Part shown: positions 11,440-36,107 of the stretch, piece after piece
Layout of the letters: every line of letters starts with the position of its first letter
Numbering within the stretch: position 1 is the first letter of the stretch
Source: Longimicrobiaceae bacterium
GTDB taxonomy: Bacteria; Gemmatimonadota; Gemmatimonadetes; Longimicrobiales; Longimicrobiaceae
Assembly (NCBI GenBank): GCA_035696245.1
Contig: DASRQW010000215.1
Span: forward strand, 1-36,107
Reading direction: 5' to 3'
Length of the DNA: 36,107 bases
Notes under the pieces: model-generated
The model's input: the letters and a program-made list of their open reading frames with translations, nothing else
What the model was told of the DNA's origin: nothing
The model's database searches: none
Made by a program: the position numbers and the translations under genes

Positions 11440-11474
11440 GTCGTTCCAAGCGCGGCTCGCCTGCCCTGCCCGCG

Positions 11475-12107: not shown

Positions 12108-12425
12108 GGGGAGGGGCTCCGGGGGGAATTTTCGTGTGTTTCCGCAACGTAGGGGCGCGGCGGACACACTGTCAAGAATCGCAACGTCCCATTCGTGCCC
12201 CTCACGCGTCGGATTCCACGCATCGGCCGGGAGAATCCGCCGCGGGCCGGCCGCCGCGCATCTCCCGGAAGGGTGCGGAAACGTGCGTACGGGACGACGG
12301 AGCGCTGCGGAGCCGCATCCGCCCCCTGGGCCCGCATCTCCCGAAAACCGTGGAGCCAGGGACGCGAACGGGCCCGGAGCAAGCGCGCTCCGGGCCCGTT
12401 CGCCGTGCTCATGCCGCGTACCGGC
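12108..12425. other. Intergenic region with two CATCTCCCG copies
   Basis: No gene is supported in this 318-bp stretch between two minus-strand genes. It carries CATCTCCCG at 12259 and 12335 and the hairpin at 12365-12402. Confidence 0.5.
12365..12402 (-). terminator. Perfect 16-bp hairpin downstream of the baeRF gene
   Basis: CGAACGGGCCCGGAGC (12365-12380) pairs perfectly with GCTCCGGGCCCGTTCG (12387-12402) around a 6-nt loop. It lies 23 bases past the stop of the minus-strand gene. There is no T run, so termination may need other factors or the hairpin may protect the 3' end. Confidence 0.6.
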
Positions 12426-13547: not shown

Positions 13548-13827
13548 ATCCGTTGCGGTTCAGGGATCGTGTCGGGCGGGCCGCCCCGCGCAAGGTCCTC
13601 ACCCGCGGCGGCTTGCAAGAACGCTGCCCGCGGCGCCCGCGCGACACGATCCCGCGGAACGACGGAACGTGTCCGGCGCGGTGTTGCGGCGCACCGCCAG
13701 GGACGGCTCCCGGCGAACCAAACGGCGCTCCGGTGGTAATTGGTTCTGTGATGAACGATCGGCTGCACGCGCGCTCGATTCGGGGGATGAAAAGCGGCAG
13801 CCGGGCAACGGCGGATGGACGGAGACA

Positions 13828-14440: not shown

Positions 14441-15215
14441 TCCTACGCACGCCTCCCGCTCTCGCAGCCCGACACGTTCGGGCCCGCTGCCAAGTTGAGC
14501 CGCAAAGGTGAGTCGGAATCATGTACCAGCCATAAACCGCGCCGCCACCACGATCCGCCTGCATTGCGCCTTTCAGAGCACCGACCTAAGCCCGTGCCGG
14601 GTGCGTCGCACGCGCTGAATCCGTCTAGTTATCGCAACCATACAACTGCGGTCTTCGATCGAGACTTGGTGCGCGGATGGAATGGATTCGCGGACCTGCT
14701 CCAACCCGGCGACAAGGCGAAAGTGCACGGCCCCGCCCCTGATCCGACGAGTAGCGCAGGAAACCGGTCATGTTTGGCCATCTTGCTATTGCACCGCGAC
14801 GTGCGTTCCTCCGTTTGATGACTCTTTGTATGGCACCGCCTTCATGGAACCTGCGCGCGTTTGTCAACAGCGGAGCCGCGCCGAAATTGTATGCTATCTC
14901 CTAGCGAAACCTCATCTCGCGAACTGTCTGGCGTCAGGCCGAATCGTGGCGTCTTCCGACGCTGGAACCCGCCTCGCGAACGATGCACCTGACAGGTTAG
15001 GGCCGCTATGCGGCGGGTCCCGTTTTGCGGTGAAAAGGGGTGTATTTCCTGCAATCCGGGAGCGCCAGCCGTTTCGCGCGCCCGCCGGGTGCCCGCCGGA
15101 GCCGATACCGCGTGCAGGGCGCGGGCAGGCCACCCCGGCTTCGTCAGCCCCCTTCAGCGCCGGCCGCGTATTGCCGTGGCGGCACCCGCCGCCCCGCCCG
15201 CACTTCACCACGACG
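14441..15215. other. Long, A/T-richer intergenic stretch before the histidine kinase
   Basis: About 775 bases lie between the terminator and the kinase start. From roughly 14500 to 15010 the sequence is visibly richer in A and T than anything else in the window. The kinase frame is open upstream to about 14682, but that part has no recognisable domain or gene-like codon use. I see no tRNA, IS terminal repeats or conserved protein here. It may be a decayed gene or transferred segment and probably carries the kinase promoter. Confidence 0.45.
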
Positions 15216-15221
15216 GTGAAC

Positions 15222-19857: not shown

Positions 19858-21591
19858 TCACCGGTTGCGCAGCACGTTCGCGAGCCACGCTCGGGCCGCC
19901 GGGCCGAACTCCGCCGCGGTGCCGTTCACGCGGTACACGTAGCGCGGCTGGCCGTCCGGAGCGGGCAGCGCGACCAGGCTGCGCGTGGTGGAGCCGACCG
20001 TCTCACGCACGTCCAGCCATCCTCCCGGGCGAAGGGCTGCCACCTCTCCGCGCCCCGGCGCCAGCAGCACTCCGCGCGCGTCCACCAGCCTTCGCGTCCC
20101 GTCCGAGGTGCTCACCCAACCGCCGGACCTGAAATCCTCCCATTCTTGCCCCGGCGCCACTGGCTTCGCGACCGGCGCAGCGGCTTCCGGCGGCGGCGCG
20201 GGCGCAGAGGACGACACGCTTCCCTGCCCGCCCGCCAACGGCGCCGCTCCGTCCGCCGGCACGCCGTCCGTCCGGCTGGACGTCGCGTCGGATGATCGCG
20301 CCGGGAGGGTCGATGCCGGGATAATGGTCGATGCCGGGATAGACGACGCGGATCCGGCCGACGGCGGGTTGGACGATCGAGATGCGGCCTCTGACGCCAA
20401 ACCGTAGTCGTCCGATCGCGCGCTACGGTCGGCCCTCGGCGGGTGCGCGGCGGTCGCGGGCCCGGCAGGTCCCGGCGGGTGCGGGAGAAGGGCAGACGGG
20501 CGGGAGATGCGGGAAGCGGCGCGCACGTCCGCCGGCTTCAGCGCAGCGACGGGGACGGCCGCGGCGAGGCTCGCCGCCAGCGCCAGCGAAGGCGTCCGCC
20601 GTCCGGGGTGCGCGCGGCGGCGGACGGCGAGGATTGCGTCGACGCGGGCGGAGATGCGGGCACGACGGGCCATGGCGAGCGCGGCGACGGGGGCGCGGCG
20701 GCCGGCGAGCGCGCGGGCCACGTCCAGCAGGTGCGCGGCGTATGCGGACGGCCGCGTGCCCAGCGCGAGCACCGCGTCGTCGCAGGCGCGCTCGCTCTCT
20801 TCCGCCAGGGCGCGCGCGGCCATCCACGCCAGCGGGTCGAACCAGTGCAGCGCCACCACCGCGTGCGCCATCCACCGCGTCAGCACGTCGCGGCGGCGGA
20901 CGTGGGCGAGCTCGTGCGCCAGCACCACGCGCCGCCGCTCGGCGCACCACGCGTCGCACCCGCCGGGGAGGAGGAGGACGGGCCGGAGCGTGCCCCACGT
21001 CATCGGCACTGCCGCGTCATCGAGCCGAAGCAGCGTCACCTTCCGCCGCACGCCGAGCCGCCGCGCCACGTCGGCCGACAGCGCCAACCATGCATCGTCC
21101 GTCACCGCCACCGCCCGCCGTCGCATCTGCCGGAGCGCCCACGCTCCCCCGGCCAGCCAGGCGAATACCGCCGCGCATCCCGCTCCCCACACCAGTAGCA
21201 CGACGACGCTCCACGGCACCTCCACCGGCTGCTCGCAGGCGAGGACGAGGTCCGATCTGGACCGCGTCGAGCCGCACCCTGTCGCCCCGTCCGCCTCGTG
21301 CCTGTCCACCAGCATCACGACGGTCTTCATCTCACGCCCTGCAGCCGCATTCGGTGCAAGCGCGGCGGCGGCGGGGATGCGGACGATGCGTGCGGCGGGG
21401 ACGACGGCGGAGAGGGCGGGCAGCGCGAGCGTGGCCGAGATGGCCGCCGCCCAGGCCACGTGCCGCGACGCGGCAGACGCACGGCGAAGCGCCGCCGCCG
21501 CGAGGCCGCCAAGGGCGAGGAGCAGCGCGCCTTTCGCGGCGAGCTCCGCGAGGGCGGGCGTCAGCACGTCCGCGGCCGGAAACGCGATCAT
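19858..21591 (-). CDS. M56-family (BlaR1/MecR1-like) membrane metallopeptidase
   Basis: This 577-aa membrane protein is the likely sensor-protease partner of the BlaI-like repressor. Helices lie at about 8-30, 40-60 and 110-140, and another at about 320-335. The cytoplasmic zinc site is LAHELAHVRRRD with His226, Glu227 and His230, followed by WFDPLAWMAARALAEESERACDDAVL, both standard for M56. Instead of a penicillin-binding domain, the C-terminus has a Ser/Pro/Ala-rich linker (about 370-480) and a short domain of about 95 residues ending YRVNGTAAEFGPAARAWLANVL. That ending resembles the two exported proteins downstream. The ATG at 21591 overlaps the blaI stop (ATGA). In this family, signal binding triggers cleavage of the repressor; what is sensed here is unknown. 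Confidence 0.85.
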   Translation of the reverse strand: MIAFPAADVLTPALAELAAKGALLLALGGLAAAALRRASAASRHVAWAAAISATLALPALSAVVPAARIVRIPAAAALAPNAAAGREMKTVVMLVDRHEADGATGCGSTRSRSDLVLACEQPVEVPWSVVVLLVWGAGCAAVFAWLAGGAWALRQMRRRAVAVTDDAWLALSADVARRLGVRRKVTLLRLDDAAVPMTWGTLRPVLLLPGGCDAWCAERRRVVLAHELAHVRRRDVLTRWMAHAVVALHWFDPLAWMAARALAEESERACDDAVLALGTRPSAYAAHLLDVARALAGRRAPVAALAMARRARISARVDAILAVRRRAHPGRRTPSLALAASLAAAVPVAALKPADVRAASRISRPSALLPHPPGPAGPATAAHPPRADRSARSDDYGLASEAASRSSNPPSAGSASSIPASTIIPASTLPARSSDATSSRTDGVPADGAAPLAGGQGSVSSSAPAPPPEAAAPVAKPVAPGQEWEDFRSGGWVSTSDGTRRLVDARGVLLAPGRGEVAALRPGGWLDVRETVGSTTRSLVALPAPDGQPRYVYRVNGTAAEFGPAARAWLANVLRNR

Positions 21592-21974
21592 CGCCCCTCC
21601 TTCCGCGCCTGGTCGATGAGCGCGGCCAGGCGGTCCAGCTCGTCCGGGGCGATATCCTCGTCTTCCAGCAGCGCGTGCACCACCTGCTCGGGGCTGCCGT
21701 TGAAGAACGTGCGCAGCAGGTGGTGGAGCGCCGTGGAGCGCGCCCGGTCCGGCGGCGTGGTGGGGAGGTAGACGTAACGCTTTCCGTCCATGTCGTGCGC
21801 CAGCAGGCCCTTCTCCTCCAGCAGGCGCAGGGCGGCGCGCACGGCGGAGTACGTGGGCGGGTCCGGCAGGTCCGCCAGCACCTCCTGCGCGCTCGCGCGC
21901 CCGCGGCGGTACACGATGTCCATCACCTGCCGTTCGCGGCGGCTGAGCTGGCTCGGAGCTGGCGAGACTGGCAT
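21588..21974 (-). CDS. BlaI/MecI/CopY-family transcriptional repressor
   Basis: This 128-aa winged-helix repressor is the first gene of a minus-strand operon. LSRRERQVMDIVYRRGRASAQEVLADLPDPPTYSAVRAALRLLEEKGLLAHDMDGKRYVYLPT is the DNA-binding domain, with the PTYSAVRAALRLLEEKG recognition helix typical of BlaI. The C-terminal part (about 80-128) is the dimerisation region. The family represses its own operon through palindromes over the promoter and is inactivated by cleavage by the M56 partner. A perfect palindrome at 22018-22037 fits this. The ATG at 21974 has GGGATG nearby. Confidence 0.92.
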   Translation of the reverse strand: MPVSPAPSQLSRRERQVMDIVYRRGRASAQEVLADLPDPPTYSAVRAALRLLEEKGLLAHDMDGKRYVYLPTTPPDRARSTALHHLLRTFFNGSPEQVVHALLEDEDIAPDELDRLAALIDQARKEGR

Positions 21975-22053: not shown

Positions 22054-22383
22054 GACTTTTCTTCACGAGCGTTCCCGGAGCCTTCGATTACCGTCTGCCG
22101 ACGCTCGACCTCCGTTCACCCGCTGGCCGCCGATCGAGCTTCTCCCGATTCGCGGTCCGCGTCGGGACTGGAGATGCACGCCGAGCCGGCGGATGCACGC
22201 ATTGTCTCGCCATCGCTCCGCGGCTGCCGCACGCTCCACCCGCGCGCCGCTGACCACGTCGGACGCTGTGCATCTCCCGAAAACACGACGGGCGCGGCAG
22301 ATGGATGCCGCGCCCGTCGTGTTTTTCCGTTCTCCGCCACCCGATCCAGCCGGACCGAGGCGCCGGGATGGTACGGGCGCCCG
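22054..22383. other. Intergenic region between blaI operon and the broken hydrolase
   Basis: No gene is supported in these 330 bases. The stretch contains CATCTCCCG at 22271 and the strong hairpin at 22280-22325. Small open frames show no family resemblance. Confidence 0.5.
22280..22325. terminator. Perfect 20-bp bidirectional terminator hairpin
   Basis: AAAACACGACGGGCGCGGCA (22280-22299) and TGCCGCGCCCGTCGTGTTTT (22306-22325) pair perfectly around the loop GATGGA. The A run on the left and T run on the right (TTTTT to 22326) make it work on either strand. On the minus strand it lies about 60 bases beyond the hydrolase stop. Confidence 0.85.
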
Positions 22384-23384
22384 TTAGCGCGCGATGTACG
22401 GCTGGAAGAATGTCCAGATGTCGCGCCACATCGCGGGTGTGATGTCGTGCGCCACGCCGGGATAGGTGCGGAAGACGGCGCGCGGGAGAACCGGCCGGTA
22501 TAGCGCCTCCGCGGCGGGCCAGCGAGCCACCGGCGTCGCTCCGAAACGCAGCACCTCCGCCCGCTCGCGGGGATCGTAGCTGTCGTCGTACGGCACCGAA
22601 TCGTTCGTGTCGTCCGAGCCGAGGAAGAGAAGAGCGGCACCTCGGCCGCCTTCGCGCGGTCGAACACGTGGCCGGAGATGGCGCGCATGTCCGCGACGCC
22701 GGCCGGGTACGTCAGCGCGTGTCCGTGGTGCGACGCGACCGGCGCCATGGGCCACGCGCCCGGCGCGCCGATGGATGCCGCCTTCACGCGCTCCGGGTGC
22801 AGCATCACGAAGCGGCTCACGAACATGCCCGCGGCGGAGTGGCCGTGCATCAGCACGCGCGGCTCGGCGGCGATCCCGTCGGCGGCCAGGCGGCGGCAGG
22901 CGTCGTCGATCATGGCGGCGAGCTGGAGGTCCGGGCGGCGGAGGGCTGGCTCCGGCGACAGCATGGCATCGCGGTCGAGCGCGTGCGTGTACACGCCGTC
23001 GCGCGACTTCGGCCGCGGGAACGCGGGCATGAGCAGGATAACGCCCTCGCGCCGGGCCGTGCGGCGAAAGAGCCCGGCCAGCTCGCGCACCCTGGCCTCG
23101 TGGACGGCGGGGTCGTCATCCACGATGCCGGTGTTGTTGGGCAGCACCAGGATCGTGCGGGTCCGCCCGAGCGCGCTGTCGGACCGCAGCGCCGGCGGCG
23201 CGTACAGGTAGTACGGCGACGAGAAGCCGTGCGCCGGGTCCGCCGCCACCCGCTCCGCCGGGGGCAGCGAGTCGGGCGCCGGAGCGGACTGCGCGCGCAG
23301 CGGCATCGCGGCGAGGGCGATCGCGGCGAGTACGGGCGCTCCGCCGCGGATCGCACGCGCGGTGAAGTCTCTATTCGGGTTCAT
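22384..23384 (-). pseudogene. Exported alpha/beta hydrolase (PHB depolymerase/esterase-like), frameshifted
   Basis: The N-terminal part (ATG 23384) has a signal peptide (APVLAAIALAAMPLRAQ) and then an alpha/beta hydrolase: ILVLPNNTGIVDDDP, GVILLMPAFPRPKSRDGVYTHALDRDAM and the nucleophile elbow LMHGHSAAGMFVSRFVMLHPERV. The frame breaks near 22625-22637, where the minus strand reads CCGCTCTTCTCTTCCTCGG. Dropping two bases of this CT-rich run joins it to LGSDDTNDSVPYDDSYDPRERAEVLRFG and GVAHDITPAMWRDIWTFFQPYIAR, which supply the acid and His. The restored protein would be about 332 aa. The rest is intact, so this is either a recent mutation or a sequencing error. Without repair the product lacks the catalytic Asp and His. 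Confidence 0.78.
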
Positions 23385-24145
23385 CTGCAGGTCGTATGTC
23401 GGATGCACACGGAACATCGGAAGGTCGGACGCCGGTGCGATACGCATCCCCCGCCGCGGCGGTTTCGCTGACGGCCGACGCATCCTCGGACGTCGTCCAC
23501 GAAACGGATCGCCTCGTCCTCTGCTCCCTTGCAGCCCCGCTGACGCGCCTCGTACCGTCGGCGCCCGCGAGGCGGCCTGGGTGCGGTGTCGGCCGCGGTC
23601 ATTCACGGGCCGCTCGCTGCCATCTACCTCTTCGATCACCACCCCTGCTCGTCCCCGCCGTCATTCGTCCCGCATCACACGCCCCTGAGCCAGCTCCCCG
23701 TCCGCTCGTCCCTCCCACACGCGGTTCGCCACGCCACAGACGCTTTCCGCCACTTCACAGTTACGGCTGCGCGAGCCCCGCCGCATCCTTCACCAGCGAT
23801 GAGGCGCACCGTTCCGCATCCAACCGGCCCCGAAGCCCGGCAGAAGAGAGGCTGGGCGCGGCCGAGAGCCAGCGCATTCGCCGGCCGGGCGCGCCGCGAA
23901 CGAGGAATCGGAGCGGGCTACGGAACCGGCCGGTTCGAGAGGATCGATGGGACGAGGGTGCGGGGAGAAACCGGCCAGGGAGGACGAAATCGGCCGATTC
24001 GGACCATCCGCCAGCGAGAAGACGGACGACCGCGCGGATGGCGGTCGGACGGCGAGTAGGGAGAGTGGATCGCGCTCGGAGGAATCGGGGGCGAGGTGCC
24101 GGCGCCATCACCGGCTTGCAGGTGACCCAAGCGAGGGAGCGTACC
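23385..24145. promoter_or_regulatory. Long region upstream of the RiPP operon with repeated AACCGGCC boxes
   Basis: No gene is supported in these 761 bases. The plus strand is pyrimidine-rich to about 23800 and then purine-rich up to the first precursor. AACCGGCC occurs at 23822, 23924 and 23969; the middle copy is part of the 14-bp palindrome GAACCGGCCGGTTC (23923-23936). A related palindrome AATCGGCCGATT is at 23988-23999. These may be operators for the RiPP operon. I could not place a convincing -35/-10 pair. Confidence 0.45.
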
Positions 24146-24304
24146 ATGAAGAAGCTGGAATCGCTCGACAGCGACCTGTTCCGGCCGCTCGCCGCGGCTG
24201 AGACGCTGGAGGTGGTGGGCGCGAGGGGGACGAGCGCCGTGTTCACCGGCCCCAGCCGTAGGGACGACGGCGACGGGTGGGACGGCGTGCCGCCTCCCGT
24301 CTGA
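24146..24304 (+). CDS. RiPP precursor peptide 1 (grasp-with-spasm type)
   Basis: This 52-aa peptide is a likely substrate of the ATP-grasp ligase encoded downstream. The leader has KLESLDSDLFRPL and ends VVGA at residues 23-26. Leu15, Glu19, Val23 and Gly25-Ala26 fit the -12, -8, -4 and -2/-1 positions of a double-glycine leader cleaved by C39 peptidases. The predicted core is residues 27-52. It holds Ser/Thr at 29, 30, 34 and 37 and Asp at 40, 41, 43 and 46, the donor and acceptor side chains needed for ester rings. It has no Lys, so amide rings are unlikely. GAGGGAG lies eight bases or so before the ATG. The leader matches precursor 2, 110 bp downstream. Confidence 0.85.
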   Translation: MKKLESLDSDLFRPLAAAETLEVVGARGTSAVFTGPSRRDDGDGWDGVPPPV

Positions 24305-24324
24305 CGGGCGCGGCGAAGTGACCC

Positions 24325-24392
24325 GCTCCCGCCCGGGAGCAGCGCGGGGGTTCCCGCGATCCAGACCGATGCCCGCCGCGGAACCCCGCGCG
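24325..24392 (+). promoter_or_regulatory. Competing RNA hairpins between the two precursor genes
   Basis: GCTCCC-GCCC-GGGAGC (24325-24340) and CGCGGG-GGTT-CCCGCG (24343-24358) are adjacent perfect hairpins. The second can instead pair, with single-base bulges, to CGCGGAACCCCGCGC at 24377-24391. Such alternatives could affect translation or stability of the second precursor; function is inferred. Confidence 0.4.
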
Positions 24393-24414
24393 GGCGACCC
24401 ACGGAGATCCGAAG

Positions 24415-24576
24415 ATGAGCAAGCTCGAGACGCTGGACCAGGCGCTGTTCCAGCCGCTGCCGCAGTCCGGGACGGCCACGCTGGTGGGCGCGATCAACAT
24501 GACGTACCGCGGCGGGACCGTCGTCAACAAGCAGATCGTGGACGGCGACGAGACCAACGACAACTTCGTGTACTGA
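24415..24576 (+). CDS. RiPP precursor peptide 2 (grasp-with-spasm type)
   Basis: This 53-aa peptide shares with precursor 1 the leader pattern M(K/S)KLE(S/T)LDxxLFxPL and a Gly25-Ala26 ending at the same position, with Leu15 and Leu23 at -12 and -4. About half of the 26 leader residues are identical. The predicted core is residues 27-53, with Thr30, Thr35 and Thr47, Lys39, and acidic Asp43, Asp45, Glu46 and Asp49. The DGD motif aligns with DGD in precursor 1, while the rest of the core differs, as expected for a precursor family. Lys39 would allow an amide ring as well as esters. GGAG sits eight bases before the ATG. A perfect palindrome follows the stop. Confidence 0.87.
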   Translation: MSKLETLDQALFQPLPQSGTATLVGAINMTYRGGTVVNKQIVDGDETNDNFVY

Positions 24577-24582
24577 CCACCC

Positions 24583-24620
24583 GCGGGAAGGCAGGCGCGG
24601 CGCCGCGCCTGCCTTCCCGC
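24583..24620 (+). terminator. Perfect 38-nt palindrome between precursor 2 and the ligase gene
   Basis: GCGGGAAGGCAGGCGCGGC (24583-24601) and GCCGCGCCTGCCTTCCCGC (24602-24620) are exact reverse complements with no spacer. As RNA it would form a very stable stem 6 bases after the precursor stop. There is no T run, only C-rich sequence, so it probably acts as a partial terminator or 3'-end stabiliser that yields more precursor than enzyme mRNA. Confidence 0.7.
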
Positions 24621-24654
24621 ATCCCCCCATCCCCCCCGGCCCGGCCATCCGCCC

Positions 24655-25644
24655 ATGATCGTGCTTCTCAGCCAGCAGGACTACGAGCACTCCACCGAGG
24701 ACGTGCTGGACTGGATCGCTGCACTGGGCGGCCACGCGGTGCGGCTGAACGGCGAGGACGTGAACGAGGACGACCCGTTCGTGCTGGAGTGCACGGCCGA
24801 CGGTGTGCGGGGCGAGCTCTCGCTGGGCGGCGTGCCCGTGCGCACGGGCGAGGCGGCGGCGGTCTGGCTGCGGCGAACGCACGCGCTGCACAACGTGGAG
24901 TTCGCGGCCGGGGTGGAGCCCCCGTCCGCAGGGCGGATGCTGCGCGGCTACCTGCTGACGGAGCTGCGCGCCACGCACCGGGCGCTGCACGCCGCGCTGG
25001 CGGGCACGCCCTGGCTCACCCGTCCGTGGCAGACCGACGTGGACAAGCTGCACACGCTCACGCTGGCCGCGCGCGCCGGGCTGGAGGTGCCCGCCACCAT
25101 CGTCACCAACGACCGCGCCCGGCTGGCCGAGTTCAAGGCGCGCCATGGCCGCGTGATCACGAAGAGCGTGGGCAACGCCGTGTCGTTCGCGCTGGAGGAC
25201 GGACGATACCCGCTGTACACGGCGGAGCTTTCGGACGAGGACGTGGCGGCGGCGCCCGAGCGCTTCTTCCCGTCGCTCGTGCAGGAGATGGCGGAGAAGG
25301 CCTTCGAGGTGCGCTGCTTCTACCTGGACGGGCGATGCTGGAGCATGGCGATCTTCTCGCAGCTCGATGCGCAGACGGCGGTGGACTTCCGGCGCTACAA
25401 CGACGAGCGGCCCAACCGCACCGTGCCGTACCTGCTGCCGCCCGAGGTGGAATCGGCCGTGTGCTCGCTGATGCGGTCCATCCCGCTCGACACGGGCTCG
25501 CTGGACCTGGTGTGCACGCCGGAGGGCCGCCACGTCTTCCTGGAGGTCAACCCGGTCGGCCAGTTCGGGATGGTGTCTGCCCCCTGCAACTACTTCCTGG
25601 AGCGCGAGGTCGCCCGCTCCCTCATCTCCCGCGCATCGTCATGA
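24655..25644 (+). CDS. gwsG: Grasp-with-spasm ATP-grasp peptide ligase (GwsG-like)
   Basis: This 329-aa ATP-grasp enzyme should activate Asp/Glu side chains of the precursor as acyl phosphates and join them to Ser/Thr or Lys side chains, as in microviridin-type (graspetide) synthesis. The N-terminal IVLLSQQDYEHSTEDVLDWIAALGG and the C-terminal GSLDLVCTPEGRHVFLEVNPVGQFGMVSAPCNYFLE match the grasp-with-spasm ATP-grasp family. The NP within EVNPVGQF is the Mg-binding segment, and VITKSVG and FFPSLVQEMAEKAFEVRCFYLDGRCWSMAI contribute the ATP site. The ATG at 24655 lacks a clear ribosome site; the palindrome lies just upstream. Its stop overlaps the next gene's ATG (ATGA). The product is cytoplasmic. 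Confidence 0.92.
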   Translation: MIVLLSQQDYEHSTEDVLDWIAALGGHAVRLNGEDVNEDDPFVLECTADGVRGELSLGGVPVRTGEAAAVWLRRTHALHNVEFAAGVEPPSAGRMLRGYLLTELRATHRALHAALAGTPWLTRPWQTDVDKLHTLTLAARAGLEVPATIVTNDRARLAEFKARHGRVITKSVGNAVSFALEDGRYPLYTAELSDEDVAAAPERFFPSLVQEMAEKAFEVRCFYLDGRCWSMAIFSQLDAQTAVDFRRYNDERPNRTVPYLLPPEVESAVCSLMRSIPLDTGSLDLVCTPEGRHVFLEVNPVGQFGMVSAPCNYFLEREVARSLISRASS

Positions 25645-25868
25645 GCCACGCCACGCCCGCGGGCCAGCCCCGCACGCTTCTGGAAGCCCTGCCCGCGCAG
25701 GTGCGCGAAGGCGGGCTCCTTCCCCTGCTCTTCTCGGTCTCGAACCGCGACGACGCGGGCCAGCCGCCCCAGCCCCGCGGCGCGCCGAGCGACGTGTACC
25801 ACGCGGCCAACGCCTTCTGCGAGCACTCGCCCAAGCCGCTGACGCGCTGCTTCGCGGGGGGCTGGTGA
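25641..25868 (+). CDS. Small unrecognised protein within the RiPP operon, 75 aa
   Basis: I do not recognise this protein. It is translationally coupled on both sides: its ATG overlaps the ligase stop (ATGA) and its stop overlaps the GTG of the SPASM gene (GTGA). That placement and normal codon use argue that it is real. It starts RTLLEALPAQVREGGLLPLLFSVSNRDD and ends with a Cys-containing tail, NAFCEHSPKPLTRCFAGGW. It lacks the precursor leader motif and a Gly-Ala site, so it is probably not a third substrate of the same kind. Possible roles are a leader-binding adaptor, a chaperone for the SPASM protein or an immunity factor; these are guesses. Confidence 0.72.
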   Translation: MSHATPAGQPRTLLEALPAQVREGGLLPLLFSVSNRDDAGQPPQPRGAPSDVYHAANAFCEHSPKPLTRCFAGGW

Positions 25869-26965
25869 GCGCCCCGGTCCTGCGCCTGTACGCGCAGTGC
25901 GTGCCGGTGCGCGGTGCCCGCCGCAGCACGATCTGCGACCTTCAGCGCGGGACGTACCGCCTCATCCCCAACGGGCTGTTCGACGTGCTCACGCTGCACC
26001 GCGGGAAGACGGCGGACGAGGTGAAGGCGGCGTACGCGCCGGACGAGGCGGACACCATAGACGCGTACTTCCGCTTCGTGGTGGAGAACGAGATGGGGTT
26101 CTGGACCGAGACGCCGGAGCGATTTCCCGATCTCGCCCTGTCGTGGGACGCCGCGGAGCGCATCACCAACGCGGTGATCGACGTGGGCCGCTCGTCGGCG
26201 CACGACTTCGCGTCGCTCTTCCGCCAGCTCGACGGGCTGGGGTGCAGGCACGTGCAGGTGCGGTGGTTCGCCCCGGTCTCGCCGGGCGAGGTGGATGCGG
26301 CCCTGGCCGGGGCGTCGCGCGGGCGGCAGCGCTCGGTGGAGGCGCTGGTGCCGTGGAGCGCCGAGTGGACGGACGATGCGTGCATCGCGCTCTGCGGCGG
26401 GCATCCCCGGCTGATGACGCTGTTCGTGCACTCGGCGCCCCAGGCGCGCGTGGCGGACGGGCCGGTGCACGTGCGCATCCGCTTCCGCACCGAGCGGGTG
26501 ACGGGGCAGGACCACTGCGGGCAGGTGCATCCCATGTACTTCACGCCCGCCATCGGCCACTTCACCGAGTCGCAGGGCCACAACACCTGCCTCAACCGGA
26601 AGATGTCGGTAGACGAGCACGGCGAGATCCGCAACTGCCCGTCTATGCCGCGCTCGTTCGGCAATGCGCGCGGCACCACGCTGGAAGCCGCGCTGATGGA
26701 GCCCGGCTTCACCGACGCCTGGAAGGTCACGAAGGACCAGGTGGAGGTGTGCCGCGACTGCGAGTTCCGCCACGTCTGCACCGACTGCCGCGCCTTCACC
26801 CGCGACGCCGCGAACCCGCTGTCGAAGCCCGCCCGCTGCGCGTACGACCCGTACACCGCCACGTGGCCGGGGCTGGGAGACGCGCCCGCTTCCGTCGGCG
26901 TGCACGCCCCGGCCGACGCATCCGCATCTGCCCACGCATCCGCCTCCGCCGCGGCCGCCGCATGA
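25865..26965 (+). CDS. gwsS: Grasp-with-spasm SPASM-domain peptide maturase (GwsS-like)
   Basis: This 366-aa protein matches the SPASM partner of grasp-with-spasm systems. The N-terminus LRLYAQCVPVRGARRSTICDLQRGTYRLIPNGLFDVL is characteristic. No CxxxCxxC radical-SAM motif is present. The C-terminal SPASM region is intact: Cys242-x10-Gly-x4-Cys258, then Cys296-x2-Cys299-x5-Cys305-x2-Cys308 and Cys325, able to bind auxiliary Fe-S clusters. The Cys-rich DHCGQVHPMYF segment lies just before it. From the family, its role is maturation of the same precursor, but the chemistry is not established. The last 30 residues are an Ala/Ser/His-rich tail of low complexity. The GTG start overlaps the small gene's stop; its stop overlaps the transporter ATG. 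Confidence 0.9.
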   Translation: MSAPVLRLYAQCVPVRGARRSTICDLQRGTYRLIPNGLFDVLTLHRGKTADEVKAAYAPDEADTIDAYFRFVVENEMGFWTETPERFPDLALSWDAAERITNAVIDVGRSSAHDFASLFRQLDGLGCRHVQVRWFAPVSPGEVDAALAGASRGRQRSVEALVPWSAEWTDDACIALCGGHPRLMTLFVHSAPQARVADGPVHVRIRFRTERVTGQDHCGQVHPMYFTPAIGHFTESQGHNTCLNRKMSVDEHGEIRNCPSMPRSFGNARGTTLEAALMEPGFTDAWKVTKDQVEVCRDCEFRHVCTDCRAFTRDAANPLSKPARCAYDPYTATWPGLGDAPASVGVHAPADASASAHASASAAAAA

Positions 26966-29193
26966 GCGCGGGGGTGGCGGAGCGGGTGCGGGCGCGGATG
27001 CCGTTCCCGGCGTACCGGCAGCTCGACAGCATGGACTGCGGGCCCACCTGCCTGCGCATGGTCGCCCGCCACCACGGGCGCACCTGCTCGCTGGAGGAGC
27101 TGCGGGAGCGGTGCGCGCTCACCCGGCAAGGCGTGTCGATGCTGGGGATCGCCTACGCGGCGGAGAGCATCGGCTTCCGGACGCTGAGCGTGAAGACCGC
27201 GTGGGAGCAGCTCGCGGGCGAGGCGCCGCTGCCGTGCATCGCCCACTGGGGGCAGGACCACTTCGTCGTGGTGCACCGCGTTCGCCGCGGTCGAGTGCAC
27301 GTGGCCGACCCGGCGCAGGGCCGCCGCGTGATCGGCCGCGACGAGTGGATGCGCGGCTGGGCCGGCATCCACGAAGACGGCCGCCGCATGGGCGCGCTCC
27401 TGCTGCTGGAGCCCACCCCCGCGTTCTACGCCGCGCGCGACGGCGAGGCGGAGCCGGGCCGGGCACGCGAGCGGCCGGCGCTGCTGCGGCCGTACCTGCG
27501 CGGCCACGGGCGCCTGTTCGCGCAGGTCGGGCTGGGCATGCTGCTCGGCAGCGGCATCTCTCTCGTCATCCCCCTGCTGGCCCAGGCGCTGGTGGACCGC
27601 GGGATCGGCGACCGCGACGTGGGGTTCGTGTGGATGCTGCTGATGGCGCAGGTGGCGCTCGTCGTGGGCCGCACCGCCATGGAGCTCATCCGCGGGCGCA
27701 TCCTCTTCCACGTGGGCAGCCGCGTCTTCCTGTCGCTCACGTCGGACTTCCTGCTCAAGCTGCTGCGCCTGCCGCTGTCGTTCTTCGACACGCGCAACGC
27801 GGGCGACATCCTGCAACGCGTCAACGACCACCAGCGCATCCAGCAGTTCCTCACCGGCACCACGCTCAACGTGGTCTTCTCGCTCGTGACCTTCGCCGTC
27901 TTCTCCGCGGTGCTGGGCATCTACAGCCCGCTGGTGCTGGGCGTGTTCCTGGCCGGCAGCGCGGTGCACGCGGCGTACGTGCTGCTCTTCCTGCGCCCGC
28001 GGCGCGAGCTGGACCACCTGCGCTTCTCGGAGATGGCCCGCAGCCAGGGCGCGCTGGTGGAGCTGGTGGGCGCCATGCCCGAGGTGAAGCTCGCCAACGC
28101 CGAGCAGCAGAAGCGCTGGGCGTGGGAGCGCATCCAGGCGCGCGTCTTCCGCTTCAACCTGCGCGGGCTGGCGCTGGACCAGGCGCAGGAGGGCGGCGCC
28201 GTGCTCGTCAACGAGCTGAAGAACGCCGCCGTGCTCTTCCTCTCCGCCAGCCTGGTGGTGGACGGCAAGCTGACGCTGGGGATGCTGCTCTCGGTGCAGT
28301 ACATCCTGGGCCAGCTCAGCCTTCCGCTCATGCAGCTCGTGGGCTTCGCGCACGCGGCGCAGGACGCGCGCATCAGCTTGCAGCGCCTGGCGCAGGTGCA
28401 CGAGCGCGAGGACGAGGAAGACCCGGACGCCGTGCTTTCCGCCCTGCCGGCCGACGGCACGCTGGAGCTGCGCGGCGTCTCGTTCACCTATGGCGGCCCG
28501 CTGGCCGAGCCGGTGCTGCGCGGCGTGGATCTCGTGATCCCGCAGGGCAAGGTGACGGCCATCGTGGGGGCCAGCGGCAGCGGCAAGACGACGCTGCTGA
28601 AGCTGCTGGTCAAGTTCCACGAGCCCACCGCGGGGCAGATCACGGTGGGCGGCACGCGGCTGCGCGCCGTGTCCAACCGGCTGTGGCGGGACCGCTGCGG
28701 AGTGGTGATGCAGGAAGGGCAGCTCTTCTCCGACAGCGTGGCGGGCAACGTGGCCGCGGGCTGCGACGCGCCGCAGACGGAGCGGGTGCTGCACGCCGTG
28801 CGCGTGGCCAACGTGCACGGGTTCGTGGAGGCGCTGCCGCTGGCGTACAACACCCGCGTGGGCCGCGAGGGGCTGGGGATGAGCCAGGGGCAGAAGCAGC
28901 GCCTGCTCATCGCCCGCGCCGTGTACAAGGACCCCGCGTACCTGTTCTTCGACGAGGCGACGAGCGCGCTGGACGCGGAGAACGAGCGCACCATCATGGA
29001 GAACCTGGAGGAGTTCTTCCAAGGCCGGACGGTGGTGGTGATCGCGCACCGGCTGAGCACGGTGAAGAACGCGGACCAGATCGTGGTGCTCGACGCCGGC
29101 CGCGTCGTGGAGCGCGGCACCCACGCGGAGCTCACCGCGCTGTGCGGGGCGTACTGGCGGCTGGTGAAGAACCAGCTGGAGCTGGGATCGTGA
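26962..29193 (+). CDS. Peptidase-containing ABC transporter (C39 peptidase, PCAT)
   Basis: This 743-aa inner-membrane protein should cut the leader from the modified precursor and export the core. The C39 peptidase (about 14-145) has Cys26 in SMDCGPTC, His100 in WGQDHFVVVH and Asp116 in VADPAQG. The transmembrane region spans about 165-450. The ATPase (about 490-740) shows Walker A GASGSGKTT at 536-544, signature GMSQGQKQRLLIARA (MSQGQ in place of LSGGQ) and Walker B YLFFDEATSALD, with an H-loop IAHRLST. Both precursors carry a Gly-Ala site at residues 25-26 as C39 enzymes need. The ATG overlaps the gwsS stop (ATGA) and the stop overlaps the next GTG. Confidence 0.95.
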   Translation: MSAGVAERVRARMPFPAYRQLDSMDCGPTCLRMVARHHGRTCSLEELRERCALTRQGVSMLGIAYAAESIGFRTLSVKTAWEQLAGEAPLPCIAHWGQDHFVVVHRVRRGRVHVADPAQGRRVIGRDEWMRGWAGIHEDGRRMGALLLLEPTPAFYAARDGEAEPGRARERPALLRPYLRGHGRLFAQVGLGMLLGSGISLVIPLLAQALVDRGIGDRDVGFVWMLLMAQVALVVGRTAMELIRGRILFHVGSRVFLSLTSDFLLKLLRLPLSFFDTRNAGDILQRVNDHQRIQQFLTGTTLNVVFSLVTFAVFSAVLGIYSPLVLGVFLAGSAVHAAYVLLFLRPRRELDHLRFSEMARSQGALVELVGAMPEVKLANAEQQKRWAWERIQARVFRFNLRGLALDQAQEGGAVLVNELKNAAVLFLSASLVVDGKLTLGMLLSVQYILGQLSLPLMQLVGFAHAAQDARISLQRLAQVHEREDEEDPDAVLSALPADGTLELRGVSFTYGGPLAEPVLRGVDLVIPQGKVTAIVGASGSGKTTLLKLLVKFHEPTAGQITVGGTRLRAVSNRLWRDRCGVVMQEGQLFSDSVAGNVAAGCDAPQTERVLHAVRVANVHGFVEALPLAYNTRVGREGLGMSQGQKQRLLIARAVYKDPAYLFFDEATSALDAENERTIMENLEEFFQGRTVVVIAHRLSTVKNADQIVVLDAGRVVERGTHAELTALCGAYWRLVKNQLELGS

Positions 29194-30635
29194 CGCCGCC
29201 TCCCGTTGCGCCCGCCGCGACCGTGACGCCGCACCCCGTGGGCCCGGCGCCCGGTCCGTCGCCGGAGGGCGGGATCGCGCTCGCGCCGGGGCTGGCGGTT
29301 CCCGGCACGCCGCCGCCCGCTGCCGGACGGGGCTTCCAGCTGCGGAGCGACGAGGTCGAGGAGGTGATCGGCTACGTGCCCGGGCGGCTCGTCAGATGGG
29401 GGACGGGCGCCGCGTCGCTCGTGGCCGCGGGAATGTGCGTGCTCGCCTTCGTGGTGCATTACCCGGAGGTGGTGCACGGCCGCGCGACCGTGACCACGCC
29501 CGACCCGCCGGTCCGCGTGGTCGCCCCCGCCGGCGGAGAGGTGCAGCGCCTGGCCGTGAGCGACGGCGATGCGGTGCCGGCGGATGCCTACCTCGCCGTC
29601 CTCCGCAGCGCGGCGGACTACCGCGACGTCGCCCGCGTGCAGGCGGCGCTGGACGCGATGCAGCCGGCGGTCTCGGGCGGCGCGGTCCCGGACGGCGTGA
29701 GCCTCCCGCTGAATCCGGTGCTGGGAGATGCGCAGTCCGCGTACACCGCGCTCACGCAGGCCGCCGCCGCCTACCGCGCGTTCGCGGGAGACGGGCTGTA
29801 CGCCGCCCGCGCGGCGGCGCTGGACCGGGAGGCGAACGGCTACCGGGCGATGCGGTCGGCGCTCGCGGCGCGCGTGCGTCTGCTGGAGAGCGGCCGGGCG
29901 CTGGGCCTGCGCGAGCGCGACCGCGGCCGCACGCTGGCCGCCGCCCGCGTGCTCTCGCCCGCAGACGCGGAGCGCGCCGAGGCGGAGTACGTCCAGACGG
30001 CGCAGGCGCTGGAGGCCGGCCGCGGGGAGGCGGCGGCCAACGAGGTCCGGATCGCCCAGGCCGAGCGCGCCGCGCTGGAGCTTCGCCAGGCCCGCGCGGA
30101 CGAGGACGTGCGCCTGCGCCTCGCCGTCCGCGCCGCGTACGACGGGCTGCGCCAGGCCCTGCGCGCATGGGAGCAGCGATACGTGCTGCGGGCGCCCGTG
30201 GCCGGCCGCGTCTCGTTCTTCCGCCCGCTCCAGGCCGGCCGCTACCTCGCGGCGGCCGAGCCGGTGCTGGCCGTGGTCCCCGGCGGCCGCCGCCCCGCCG
30301 CCACCGTCGTCCTCTCCGCCGCCGATGCCGGCCGGGTGCGCGCGGGGCAGCGCGTGGTGCTGCGCTTCGACGCCTATCCCGCGGACACGTACGGCACCGT
30401 GGAAGGCCGCGTGGAACGCATCTCCCTCGTCCCCGACCGGCTGGACGGCGGGGAGGACCACGCCCCGGCCTACCTCGTCTCCGTCTCGCTGCCGCGCGGG
30501 CTGGCGGCCTCCGGCGGGCGCGCGCTGGACTTCCGCCAGGAGATGCAGGCCCGCGCCGACATCGTCACCGGCGACCTCCGCGTCGCCGACCGCCTCCTCG
30601 CCCGCCTCCGCCCCACGTCCGCCCGCGGGAACTGA
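29190..30635 (+). CDS. HlyD-family periplasmic adaptor of the peptide exporter
   Basis: This 481-aa membrane-fusion protein links the peptidase-containing ABC transporter to the outer membrane. An unusually long, Pro/Ala-rich cytoplasmic N-terminus (about 1-55) precedes one membrane helix (about 72-92, ASLVAAGMCVLAFVVHYPEVV). Next come a lipoyl-type half motif (VRVVAPAGGEVQRLAVSDGDAVPAD), a long coiled-coil region (about 145-325), the second half RYVLRAPVAGRVSFFRPLQAGRYLAAAEPVLAVVPGG, and beta-barrel and proximal domains to the end (VVLRFDAYPADTYGTVEGRVERIS). The GTG overlaps the transporter stop (GTGA). No TolC-type channel gene lies nearby, so an outer-membrane partner must be elsewhere. 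It is the last gene of the operon. Confidence 0.9.
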   Translation: MTPPPVAPAATVTPHPVGPAPGPSPEGGIALAPGLAVPGTPPPAAGRGFQLRSDEVEEVIGYVPGRLVRWGTGAASLVAAGMCVLAFVVHYPEVVHGRATVTTPDPPVRVVAPAGGEVQRLAVSDGDAVPADAYLAVLRSAADYRDVARVQAALDAMQPAVSGGAVPDGVSLPLNPVLGDAQSAYTALTQAAAAYRAFAGDGLYAARAAALDREANGYRAMRSALAARVRLLESGRALGLRERDRGRTLAAARVLSPADAERAEAEYVQTAQALEAGRGEAAANEVRIAQAERAALELRQARADEDVRLRLAVRAAYDGLRQALRAWEQRYVLRAPVAGRVSFFRPLQAGRYLAAAEPVLAVVPGGRRPAATVVLSAADAGRVRAGQRVVLRFDAYPADTYGTVEGRVERISLVPDRLDGGEDHAPAYLVSVSLPRGLAASGGRALDFRQEMQARADIVTGDLRVADRLLARLRPTSARGN

Positions 30636-32402: not shown

Positions 32403-33758
32403 TCACTCCGCGAGCGCCGGTAGCGCGGGCAGCGCCGGGACGCGGTCGATGTGGCGGATGATGAGGAAGAAGGAGATCGCGCCCAGCGGCCCCATCAGCC
32501 CCACCAGCAGGTAGACCGGCGTGTACGAGTAGTGGTCCACCAGGTAGCCAACCAGCAGCGTGAAGAGCATGCTCGCGATGCCGGCCGCCGTCCCGCCGAT
32601 GCCCGCCACCGAGCCCACGTCCTGCCGCGGGAAGCAGTCCGACGGGATGGTGATGAGGTTCACGTTCCAGCTCTGGAAGGCGAAGGCGATGATGCTCACG
32701 CCCGCCAGCACGCCGAAGTTGCCGGACGAACTCACCACCGTCGCGACGCCCAGAGGCAGCAGGAACGCGCTGGTGATCATCACCACGCGGCGCGCGCGGT
32801 CCACCGCCCAGCCGCGGCGAATGAGCAGGCTGCTGATGGCGCCGCCGGACAGGTTGCCCACGTCGGCCCACAGGAACGGGATCCACGCCAGCAGGCCGAT
32901 GAGCGCCAGGCTGAAGCCGCGCGCGTTCTTGAGGTAGTTGGGCAGCCACGAGATGAGGAACCACCAGACCGGGTCGGTGAAGAAGCGCGCGGCGATCATC
33001 GCCCACACCTGCCGGTGGCGGAAGAGGCCCAGCCAGGTGTGCCGCGGCCCCGCGGCCCCGCCGTCCTGCGGCTGGTCGCTCATGATCAGCGCACGCTCCT
33101 CGTCCGAGAGCGTGGGGTGCTTCGCGGGCGTGTGGTAGAAGAAGAACCACAGCAGCATCACCAGGATGGACAGCGCCGCGCCGATGAAGAAGGCGTAGTG
33201 CCAGCCGAAGGTGAGCGCCACGTACACGATCACCGGCGGCGCGACCACCGCGCCGATGCTGGCGCCGCTGTTGAAGATCGCCATCGCGAAGGCGCGCTCG
33301 CGCACCGGGAACCACTCCGCGACCGACTTGGCCGCGCCGGGCCAGTTGCCGCCCTCGCCGATGCCCAGGAGGAAGCGGAACGCGGCGAGCTGCACGGCGC
33401 TGCGGGCCGCGGCGTGCAGCATGGACGCGACCGTCCAGATGCCCACGAAGAGCATGAAGCCCACGCGCGTGCCCACCTTGTCCAGGATGCGCCCGGAGAT
33501 GGACTGCGAGATGGTGTACGCCAGCAGGAACATGGTGACCACGCGCGAATAGCTCACGTTGGTCATGTGGAACTGCTCCATGATCGTCGGCGCCAGCACC
33601 GACAGGGTCATGCGGTCTACGTAGTTGACCACCGTGACCAGGAAGATCATCCCGATCATCAGCCAGCGCAGGCCCTTGAACCGCCCCGCGGGCGACGCTC
33701 CCGCGCCGGTGGACGCGTGGCCGCGGGCGGCCTGGGCCGTGCTCGTCGTTCTCGCCAT
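32403..33758 (-). CDS. MFS transporter, hexuronate/oligouronate (ExuT-like) type
   Basis: This 451-aa inner-membrane protein has twelve predicted helices. It starts its first helix with RWLMIGMIFLVTVVNYVDRMTLSVLAP, where NYxDR is typical of the anion:cation symporter group that imports hexuronates. LLGIGEGGNWPGAAKSVAEWFP and the loop ILDKVGTRVG are also family features. The cytoplasmic loop after helix 6 contains HPTLSDEERALIMSD. Context supports uronate uptake: a reductase and a PL17 lyase gene lie upstream on the same strand, so the likely cargo is an unsaturated uronate or its oligomers from alginate-like polymers. The exact substrate is inferred. The ATG at 33758 is the natural start. Confidence 0.87.
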   Translation of the reverse strand: MARTTSTAQAARGHASTGAGASPAGRFKGLRWLMIGMIFLVTVVNYVDRMTLSVLAPTIMEQFHMTNVSYSRVVTMFLLAYTISQSISGRILDKVGTRVGFMLFVGIWTVASMLHAAARSAVQLAAFRFLLGIGEGGNWPGAAKSVAEWFPVRERAFAMAIFNSGASIGAVVAPPVIVYVALTFGWHYAFFIGAALSILVMLLWFFFYHTPAKHPTLSDEERALIMSDQPQDGGAAGPRHTWLGLFRHRQVWAMIAARFFTDPVWWFLISWLPNYLKNARGFSLALIGLLAWIPFLWADVGNLSGGAISSLLIRRGWAVDRARRVVMITSAFLLPLGVATVVSSSGNFGVLAGVSIIAFAFQSWNVNLITIPSDCFPRQDVGSVAGIGGTAAGIASMLFTLLVGYLVDHYSYTPVYLLVGLMGPLGAISFFLIIRHIDRVPALPALPALAE

Positions 33759-33854
33759 CTCGCTCCGTGGATCTCCGCCGCGGGGGCGGGTGTGGATGCG
33801 CGCGGGCGCCGCGTCCGCCGTCGTTTGGCCGACGGACGGGCGCCGCGGTTGTCG

Positions 33855-34613
33855 CTAGATGAAGTACGCGCCGCCGTTGATCTCCAGCGACTCACCGTTC
33901 ACGTACGACGAGGCGTCGGAGGCCAGGAAGAGCACGGCGTTCGCCACGTCGCCCGCCTCGCCCTCGCGGCCGGCGGCGGTGCGCGAGGCGACCACCTGCC
34001 GTACCTCCGGCTTGGTGAAGGTGTCGTGGAACGTGGTGTTGATCATCCCCGGCGACACGGCGTTCACGCGGATCTTGCGCGGCGCCAGCTCCTTGGCCAG
34101 CCCGCGCGTGAGCGTGAGCACGCCGCCCTTCGCGGCCGAGTACGCCAGCGCGCCGCCCCCGCCGCCGTCGCGCGCCGCGAGCGACGAGACGTTGACGATG
34201 GCGCCGCCGTCGGCGAAGTGCGGGAGCGCGGCCTGCACGGCCAGGAAGACGCTCTTGAGGTTGAGGTCCATCACCGCGTCCCAGAACGCCTCGTCCATCT
34301 CGTCGATCTTCTTGCGGGCCAGGATGCCGCCCGCGTTGTTGACGAGGACGTCGATCCGCCCGCCGAACGCCGCCAGCGTCTCGTCCACCAGGTGCTTCAC
34401 GCCCTGGGCCGTGCTCACGTCCGCCTGCACGGCGACGGCCTTGCCGCCCGCCGCCGTGACCTCGCCCGCCAGCGAGTTGGCGCGGCCGGCGCTGCTGTTG
34501 TAGTTGACGACGACGGCCGCGCCGCTCTCCGCCAGCTTCCGTACCACCGCCGCGCCGATGTCGCGCGCGCCGCCGGTGACGATCGCCACCTTCCCGTTCA
34601 GGTCCACTCGCAT
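33855..34613 (-). CDS. Short-chain dehydrogenase/reductase of the uronate cluster
   Basis: This 252-aa NAD(P)-dependent SDR has the cofactor site TGGARDIG near the N-terminus, NNAGG, VNVSS and the catalytic Tyr158-x3-Lys162 in YSAAK. PGMINT follows. The ATG at 34613 is preceded by GGAAGGGAAAGAG; a GTG five codons upstream at 34628 would place the ribosome site inside the gene. With an oligoalginate lyase and uronate transporter beside it, it likely reduces 4-deoxy-L-erythro-5-hexoseulose uronate to 2-keto-3-deoxygluconate, or acts like KduD. SDR substrate choice cannot be read from sequence alone. It is 58 bp from the lyase gene, probably in one operon. Confidence 0.88.
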   Translation of the reverse strand: MRVDLNGKVAIVTGGARDIGAAVVRKLAESGAAVVVNYNSSAGRANSLAGEVTAAGGKAVAVQADVSTAQGVKHLVDETLAAFGGRIDVLVNNAGGILARKKIDEMDEAFWDAVMDLNLKSVFLAVQAALPHFADGGAIVNVSSLAARDGGGGGALAYSAAKGGVLTLTRGLAKELAPRKIRVNAVSPGMINTTFHDTFTKPEVRQVVASRTAAGREGEAGDVANAVLFLASDASSYVNGESLEINGGAYFI

Positions 34614-34671
34614 CTCTTTCCCTTCCACGAAATGTCGATAGATGTCGTAATCCCGTCCGCTCCCGTGCGCC

Positions 34672-36107
34672 TCAGCGAGGCGCCTGGAGACCCTGGACGG
34701 AGTAGTTGCCGGTCCACTCGTACGTCTGCCCCCCGAAGGCCACGCGGTGCCGCGCGGTATCCGACGCGGGGCCGTTGCTCACCATCACCGTCCAGCGCAG
34801 GCCGTCCTTGCCCGTCACCTCCACCACGCTGGCCTCATCGCTCTGGCCGATCACGCGGACGGACTGGATGCTGGGCCGTGCATCTGCCGAACGCTCCTCC
34901 AGCTCGCTGAAGAAGCCGTGCGGCTCGATGGCGCTGGCGAAGAGCTGGTCGCCCGCCCGGCGCCGGAGGATCATCGCCGGCTCCTGGATCAGGTTGAAGC
35001 TCGGGTCGCCCGCCCCCGTCCGCGCGAAGATCACCTGGGTAGACGGCGCGCCCGCGGTGGTCACCGAGTAGTAGCGGTGCCCGTCCAGCCAGGTCATGCG
35101 GACGACGGAGTCGGTGGATGCGGACGCCTCGTTCCACAGGTGCTGGTATCCCGCCGCGGTGCCCAGCGCGTCCTGCCGCGCCGTGTGCGCCTCGTACTTC
35201 ACGTTCGAGGCGACGAGCTGCCCGCGGAAATGCACGGGATAGTCGTACGTGTGCTGCGCCGCGCTCTTGAGGCGGTACAGGTCGAGCACCACGGGGTACG
35301 GCAGCCGCGCGTCTCGAACGAGCAGCATGGTCCGCTGCATGGAGACGCCGGGGTAGAAGCCGTCGGCCTTCGCGCTCATCGCCTGCGCCGCGGGGTTCCG
35401 CGCGTCGAAGAAGTGGCGCGTGGCCCACTTCTCCTCGTCCGCCCTGTAGCTGCCCGCGCTCTGCGACTGCCCGTCCACCGTCACCGTGTTGTGGGCGATG
35501 GTCTGCTTGGCGTACGAGTCGTTCTCGGGCAGGTACCGGCCGCCGAACTTGGGCTCGATGTTGATCCACCGGCTGAACCCGTAGTCCGGCACCACCTCGT
35601 TGCCGCCGTCGAAGAAGATGAAGTGCAGCTTGTCGAAGTGGCCGTGACCCTGGCCGTGCACGCCGTACTTCATCAGCAGCATGGTGGCGTCGGTGCCCTC
35701 GCCGGAGCGGAGGATGCCCAGGCCGCCGCGCGCGCCGTCGGCCCCGTCCGTGAACTCCACGCTGCCCCAGCGGGCCTTCGGCGTTCCCGCGTGCGCCGCC
35801 ATGTCGCGGGCGACCTTCAGGCCCGCTCCGTTGAGGATCACGTCGCCCTGCATGGCCGCGGCGGCGAGCAGGCTCTCGTCCGCGCCGTACTGGCCGTAGC
35901 CGAGATCGACCGCCACCGTCGCCTCGGGCGAGGTCACGTCCATCGTGCGCGAGGCGTCGTTGATGGGCGCGAAGACGCCGTTCGGAAACGTGGTCTGCAT
36001 GGCCGAGTACAGGGCCTTCTTCAGGATCCCGCCGCGGTAGGCGTAGATGCCCACCTGCGGCTGGTTGCGCTGCACCGCGTCCGCGAGCTGGAAGAACGGG
36101 AGCAGGG
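34672..36107 (-). CDS. PL17-type oligoalginate lyase (partial, N-terminus beyond the window)
   Basis: The frame is open to the window end, so only the C-terminal 478 residues or so are present. It looks like a polysaccharide lyase of family 17 with the heparinase II/III-like fold: an alpha/alpha toroid end (GIYAYRGGILKKALYSAMQ), then a beta-sandwich with YGVHGQGHGHFDKLHFIFFDGGNEVVPDYGFSRW, IAHNTVTVDGQSQ and several strands. The HGHFDKL and HNTVTVDG segments carry metal or active-site residues in this group. PL17 enzymes release 4-deoxy-L-erythro-5-hexoseulose uronate from oligoalginate exolytically. The downstream reductase and MFS genes agree. Activity on another uronan cannot be excluded without the missing part. 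Confidence 0.85.
   Translation of the reverse strand, partial: LLPFFQLADAVQRNQPQVGIYAYRGGILKKALYSAMQTTFPNGVFAPINDASRTMDVTSPEATVAVDLGYGQYGADESLLAAAAMQGDVILNGAGLKVARDMAAHAGTPKARWGSVEFTDGADGARGGLGILRSGEGTDATMLLMKYGVHGQGHGHFDKLHFIFFDGGNEVVPDYGFSRWINIEPKFGGRYLPENDSYAKQTIAHNTVTVDGQSQSAGSYRADEEKWATRHFFDARNPAAQAMSAKADGFYPGVSMQRTMLLVRDARLPYPVVLDLYRLKSAAQHTYDYPVHFRGQLVASNVKYEAHTARQDALGTAAGYQHLWNEASASTDSVVRMTWLDGHRYYSVTTAGAPSTQVIFARTGAGDPSFNLIQEPAMILRRRAGDQLFASAIEPHGFFSELEERSADARPSIQSVRVIGQSDEASVVEVTGKDGLRWTVMVSNGPASDTARHRVAFGGQTYEWTGNYSVQGLQAPR

Follow-up and report, generated by a model that had tools for sequence, protein, structure and literature searches.

The operon at 24146-30635 of the window (the whole 36,107-nucleotide stretch of DNA analysed here) holds, by its predicted products, the full complement of genes for the synthesis and export of small cross-linked peptides, and the profile matches given below make its family-level assignment as a grasp-with-spasm graspetide locus a strong one. 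The explanation that we favor for the operon as a whole, with a probability of roughly 60%, is that its SPASM protein serves as a non-radical Fe-S partner carrying a leader-binding domain (RRE) in a two-peptide graspetide operon.

Gene content of the operon and its two precursors

A preliminary description of this DNA had proposed that two precursor genes are followed by genes for a ligase, a 75-aa protein, a SPASM protein, a C39 ABC transporter and an HlyD adaptor, with 4-bp overlaps from ligase to adaptor. All of these genes were found as claimed [Table 1], and the overlaps are present at 4 of 4 junctions, with ATGA shared at 25641-25644 and 26962-26965 and GTGA at 25865-25868 and 29190-29193, the SPASM and adaptor genes both using GTG start codons. 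Neither a sigma-70-type promoter nor a convincing terminator was found at the locus, a result that carries little weight for Gemmatimonadota. A PADLOC search returned no match, and a role in defence is therefore not argued.

Table 1 Genes of the operon and extended HlyD adaptors of related loci
Feature	Coordinates	Strand	Size and basis
Precursor peptide 1	24146..24304	+	52 aa
Precursor peptide 2	24415..24576	+	53 aa
ATP-grasp graspetide synthetase (ligase)	24655..25644	+	329 aa; TIGR04192
Small accessory protein, LPL-type	25641..25868	+	75 aa; position and motif
Grasp-with-spasm SPASM protein	25865..26965	+	366 aa; TIGR04193
Peptidase-containing ABC exporter	26962..29193	+	743 aa; C39 peptidase, transmembrane and ATPase domains
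HlyD-type membrane-fusion adaptor	29190..30635	+	481 aa; PF13437
Extended HlyD adaptors (related loci)	L031 12215-14614; L032 12933-14981; L033 12552-14792	oriented along operon	

In NCBIfam profile searches the ligase scored 270 bits against TIGR04192 (cut-off 230, E 2.7e-80) and the SPASM protein, whose gene adjoins that of the ligase at a distance of 0.2 kb, scored 311 bits against TIGR04193 (cut-off 175, E 8.8e-93). The check named in the preliminary description, a search with the grasp-with-spasm models, thus placed both proteins over the curated cut-offs. The closest solved structures to the ligase are graspetide synthetases (AMdnB 7m4s, 4e-28; 5ig8; 5ig9; CdnC), and by reading it retains both ExNPxG (EVNPVGQ) and the DFR stretch (VDFRRYN), the latter being critical for graspetide synthetase activity according to Carter et al. 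(PMC13097080). The exporter fuses a C39 peptidase domain (PF03412, 1.4e-33) to ABC membrane (PF00664, 3.7e-28) and ATPase (PF00005, 1.7e-28) domains, the architecture of peptidase-containing ABC transporters, and the adaptor matched PF13437 (HlyD_3, 1.1e-14) and also TIGR01843 (5.1e-31), yet under the cut-off of the latter model. A candidate extra gene between the ABC and HlyD genes of relatives, where a gap of 0.2-1.1 kb is seen, was rejected, as the gap corresponds to a longer N-terminal extension of the HlyD protein. This extension is long, harbors repeated 'VDDxGRRxLxxGxxRIxLP'-like units and is absent from the window's adaptor.

In almost all 34 loci, a small gene lies between those of the ligase and the SPASM protein, directly upstream of the latter. 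Its product in the window carries an N-terminal LLPLL and a C-terminal KPLTRC, and its coding sequence overlaps the SPASM start. A KPIS(K/R)-like C-terminal motif was present in 22 of 27 small proteins versus a shuffle mean of 1.1, a difference that is somewhat flattering because the motif was picked on the same sequences. Makarova et al. (PMC8939145) described an 'LPL family' of small proteins with an LPL motif and no GG leader site, which may resemble PqqD and are always encoded immediately 5′ of the SPASM gene; on the basis of position and motif, the 75-aa gene fits this auxiliary family. Both this reading and the missing radical SAM motif of the SPASM protein (see below) go beyond the preliminary description.

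The two precursors each combine a short leader ending in a GG-type site with a position upstream of the ligase, and a purine-rich, ribosome-binding-like stretch precedes both genes. Precursor 1 consists of a 26-aa leader, MKKLESLDSDLFRPLAAAETLEVVGA, and a predicted 26-aa core, RGTSAVFTGPSRRDDGDGWDGVPPPV, with four Ser/Thr, four Asp and no Cys; precursor 2 consists of the leader MSKLETLDQALFQPLPQSGTATLVGA and a predicted 27-aa core, INMTYRGGTVVNKQIVDGDETNDNFVY, with three Ser/Thr, one Lys, four Asp/Glu and no Cys, candidate donors and acceptors for cross-links being present in both. A leader profile built solely from precursors at other loci and genomes yielded 42.5 bits for precursor 1 and 21.7 bits for precursor 2, versus -4.7 for the best background among 56,634 six-frame windows of the window DNA, a gap indicating that exactly two precursors with such a leader occur in the window. 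Precursor 2 also matched a precursor of the relative G016 (L031:15683; tblastn E=5e-6). The leader common to relatives reads xLESLxxxxFxPLxxxEAxxVxGG, with cleavage predicted after residue 25-26 in most; nearly all relatives end in Gly-Gly, and the window leaders in VGA (Gly-Ala). The cores are rich in Ser/Thr and Asp/Glu, and Cys is absent from 21 of 22 of them, so that thioether chemistry is not the general step. The microviridin P-h-h-x-h motif was found in 0 of 22 leaders, which makes a different leader reader plausible.

The Gly-Ala ending of the leaders, together with the odd composition of the C-terminus of precursor 1, could be taken to mean that the locus is decaying or silent and that its precursors are no longer modified. 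We consider this very improbable, since the five genes for enzymes and export all have uninterrupted reading frames and overlap tightly, the leaders match the family profile, and the DFR and ExNPxG stretches of the ligase, like the C39 and Walker motifs of the exporter, are intact by reading.

Taken on its profile matches (TIGR04192 and TIGR04193), the locus is a grasp-with-spasm locus, that is, Branch 5 of Makarova et al. 2022 (PMC8939145), and apparently it is also candidate graspetide group 14 of Carter et al. 2026 (PMC13097080). Both grasp-with-spasm as a named kind and the large graspetide branch were already known; no member with an experimental test or a characterised product was found in the literature searched, nor was the exact phrase 'grasp-with-spasm'. 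That such systems are known mainly from bioinformatic work on Bacteroidota, as stated in the preliminary description, agrees with PMC8939145, where Branch 5 is described as highly specific for Bacteroides. The window shares with it the ligase and SPASM protein over their cut-offs, the C39 exporter and HlyD adaptor, short precursors with MKKL-like leaders 5′ of the ligase, and an LPL-type gene adjoining the SPASM gene upstream. In contrast to Branch 5, its host belongs to the Gemmatimonadota, its leaders end in Gly-Ala, and its precursors are devoid of Cys, a residue reported to be typical of many Branch 5 precursors (PMC8939145). The microviridin and chryseoviridin systems (MdnB, MdnC, CdnC) have homologous ATP-grasp ligases but neither a SPASM nor an LPL protein, and the P-h-h-x-h motif of their leaders is absent from those of the window.

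Sequence and predicted fold of the SPASM protein

Three regions may be delineated in the SPASM protein, namely an RRE-like region (residues ~5-81), a reduced barrel (102-189) without CX3CX2C, and an eight-Cys SPASM domain (218-325). The CX3CX2C motif was missing, anywhere in the sequence, from the window protein and from all homologues (0/34), as well as from the further readable family members of later searches, a check that left out three weaker Bacteroidota matches. The same test applied to ordinary radical SAM/SPASM proteins of related genomes as a positive control detected the motif in 17 of 19. Residues C218, C242, C258, C296, C299, C305, C308 and C325 are conserved in 33-34 of the 34 homologues and are the predicted ligands of two auxiliary [4Fe-4S] clusters, the usual SPASM complement being seven or eight Cys for two such clusters (PMC10352776). 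Against TIGR04085 the window protein scored 24.2 bits, slightly below the cut-off of 27. Pfam yielded no match to the protein itself and no PqqD match for its RRE-like domain; PF13186 matched 19 of 25 of its relatives.

Since PDB sequence searches gave nothing usable (no match with an eight-member SPASM profile, and a weak match to 7uek, chain named OT3, plus chance-level ones with a wider profile), fold comparison was used instead. The AF2 model of the full protein (pLDDT 88.6) comprises a beta3-alpha3 N-terminal domain, a barrel of four parallel strand-helix units and a Cys-rich domain. A full radical SAM barrel has six strand-helix units. The sole PDB fold matches of the full model below E 0.001 were two CteB structures, matching along its length. 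Modelled alone (pLDDT 94.9; elements E5-8 to H59-74), the N-terminal domain displays the three-strand, three-helix winged helix of an RRE, and its top 14 PDB fold matches are all RRE-bearing RiPP proteins, including CteB, TbiB1 with leader, PbtF, TigE, ThcOx and McbB, several of them solved leader-bound; E-values of these 14 are modest (0.007-0.5), with a fold probability near 1 for most. The N-terminus of the SPASM protein thus models as a leader-binding domain (RRE).

By sequence, the SPASM protein falls outside the canonical radical SAM enzymes, and the radical SAM label attached to its family by Makarova et al. (PMC8939145) is without support at this level in any member examined. The NCBIfam name omits 'radical SAM', which suggests that the authors of the model knew of the missing motif. 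With CteB and other RRE-bearing radical SAM/SPASM maturases the window protein shares the order RRE, barrel and SPASM domain, CteB being the best PDB match of the model; it differs from CteB in the lack of CX3CX2C, the reduced barrel and an identity of 10%. Nine of 25 members also resemble the pseudo-radical SAM family TIGR04150 (best 7.8e-9), whose name implies the lack of a working radical SAM site, but this is another family and the full-length match of the SPASM protein is to TIGR04193.

Alternatively, the SPASM protein might be a true tailoring catalyst, relying on its two auxiliary clusters, and possibly on an unusual mode of SAM binding or other redox chemistry, to introduce a second modification besides the rings. 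Such a role would agree with the conservation of all eight SPASM Cys, with the thioether-forming activity of the enzyme closest in fold, CteB, and with the names given to the family (peptide maturase in NCBIfam; radical SAM enzyme in Makarova et al., PMC8939145), but it sits poorly with the loss of CX3CX2C in 34 of 34 homologues, a barrel cut down to about four strand-helix units and cores without conserved Cys, and we regard it as unlikely. Thioether formation by the SPASM protein was set aside, the precursors being without Cys.

Proposed role of the SPASM protein

In the explanation that we favor, that of a non-radical, RRE-bearing Fe-S partner, the ATP-grasp ligase would phosphorylate core Asp/Glu residues on their side chains, which Ser/Thr (or Lys) side chains would then attack, forming ester or amide rings, as expected from the family. 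The RRE of the SPASM protein would grip the LESLxxxxFxPL leader and present the core to the ligase, with the 75-aa LPL protein as a putative further adaptor within the same complex. The C39 domain of the exporter, again by analogy with its family, would cut after Gly-Ala at leader residue 25-26 during export, and the peptide would exit via the ABC/HlyD channel. The lack of P-h-h-x-h in the leaders and of a canonical radical SAM gene in the window fits such a mechanism with the SPASM protein as leader reader. The retention of all eight cluster ligands suggests a role for the clusters beyond maintaining the fold; the SPASM protein could both read the leader and catalyse something, and the ligase may bind leaders on its own.

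In the rosaritide system (group 21; MirA/MirB/MirC/MirD; PMC13097080), MirB is inactive without MirC, ring formation requires MirC, and the N-terminal domain of MirC weakly resembles an RRE. Common to rosaritide and the window are a synthetase with a strictly co-occurring non-ligase partner bearing an RRE-like N-terminal domain, and a peptidase-containing transporter. MirC, however, is SurA/PpiC-like, with a main domain unrelated to the SPASM protein, and dependence of the ligase on its partner was shown for MirC whereas we infer it for the SPASM protein of the window.

The two conserved cluster sites might instead point to an electron-transfer or scaffold partner of a canonical radical SAM enzyme whose gene lies at another place in the genome, and some family genomes, G008 among them, do encode canonical radical SAM/SPASM proteins. 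This we consider improbable, as the window is devoid of a canonical radical SAM gene, the co-occurrence of the SPASM protein is with the ligase, and a plausible radical SAM gene was found nearby in only 2 of 33 other loci (L037, ~5 kb off; L055, QueE-like) in a scan that picked up 13 of 18 controls, an earlier strict motif scan having been dropped at 5 of 18.

If the SPASM protein is indeed a non-radical, RRE-bearing partner, there is, contrary to expectation, no additional radical modification, failure of ligase-only expression is explained beforehand, and the right set to express consists of the SPASM protein, loaded with Fe-S, together with the LPL protein, the ligase and a precursor. For such tests the loci of Gemmatimonadota are handy: their cores are short and free of Cys, and they encode as many as eight precursors. 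More tentatively, and with odds that we place somewhat short of even, the SPASM protein may throughout the family (Bacteroidota, Gemmatimonadota and Acidobacteriota) have started out as a radical SAM enzyme, lost the SAM cluster and turned into an Fe-S leader-binding partner essential to the ligase, such that ring formation could follow the state of the clusters.

Distribution of the locus and other features of the window

New here is the occurrence of grasp-with-spasm in one Gemmatimonadota family (8 loci in 6 genomes), in Acidobacteriota and in an Aminicenantes record. In the window's family, 8 of 8 ligases over the cut-off adjoin 8 of 8 SPASM proteins over the cut-off, in 6 of 21 genomes, and among 298 genomes sampled across the phylum matches were confined to this family. 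A scan of named genomes revealed relatives in Gemmatimonadota, Acidobacteriota, one Aminicenantes record and many Bacteroidota, although distant relatives are undercounted because the scan was seeded with Gemmatimonadota protein motifs. The SPASM tree groups the eight Gemmatimonadota-type rows into one clade (98/94), which joins the two Acidobacteriota rows (100/100) beside Bacteroidota lineages. Support for the Gemmatimonadota-like host suggested in the preliminary description comes from L035 and L043, two of the closest loci, both of which are from 'Gemmatimonadetes bacterium RYN_364'.

Another contig of the same genome harbors a second complete grasp-with-spasm locus (L034, G000:C201:3000-17537; genes at ~6657-13965), the core of which is longer and different: ADIYFASYKLVSVEVWGIVDESGFTPILEIDTYKLFDVGVIYDV. 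Locus L031 of G016 (7246-7452 and 14953-16522) encodes eight precursors with one leader type and different cores, one located 5′ of the ligase and seven in tandem after the HlyD gene. Three TIGR04193 genes (L068, L071 and L073) were found in one Acidobacteriota genome (G316), and the Aminicenantes copy (L056/L070/L072) is broken up by stop codons or a change of frame.

About 2 kb upstream of the precursors, the window encodes a BlaI/penicillinase-type repressor on the minus strand (21588-21974; PF03965, 8.9e-27). A hydrolase-like frame with the motif HGHSAAGMF and no Pfam match is apparently continued in a second frame in a frameshift-like manner (22116-23642 and 22384-22755, both on the minus strand). 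Downstream of the operon, genes for an MFS transporter, a short-chain dehydrogenase and a heparinase II/III-like (alginate-lyase type) protein follow one another on the minus strand (32403-36075), in what looks like a cluster for polysaccharide or uronate use.
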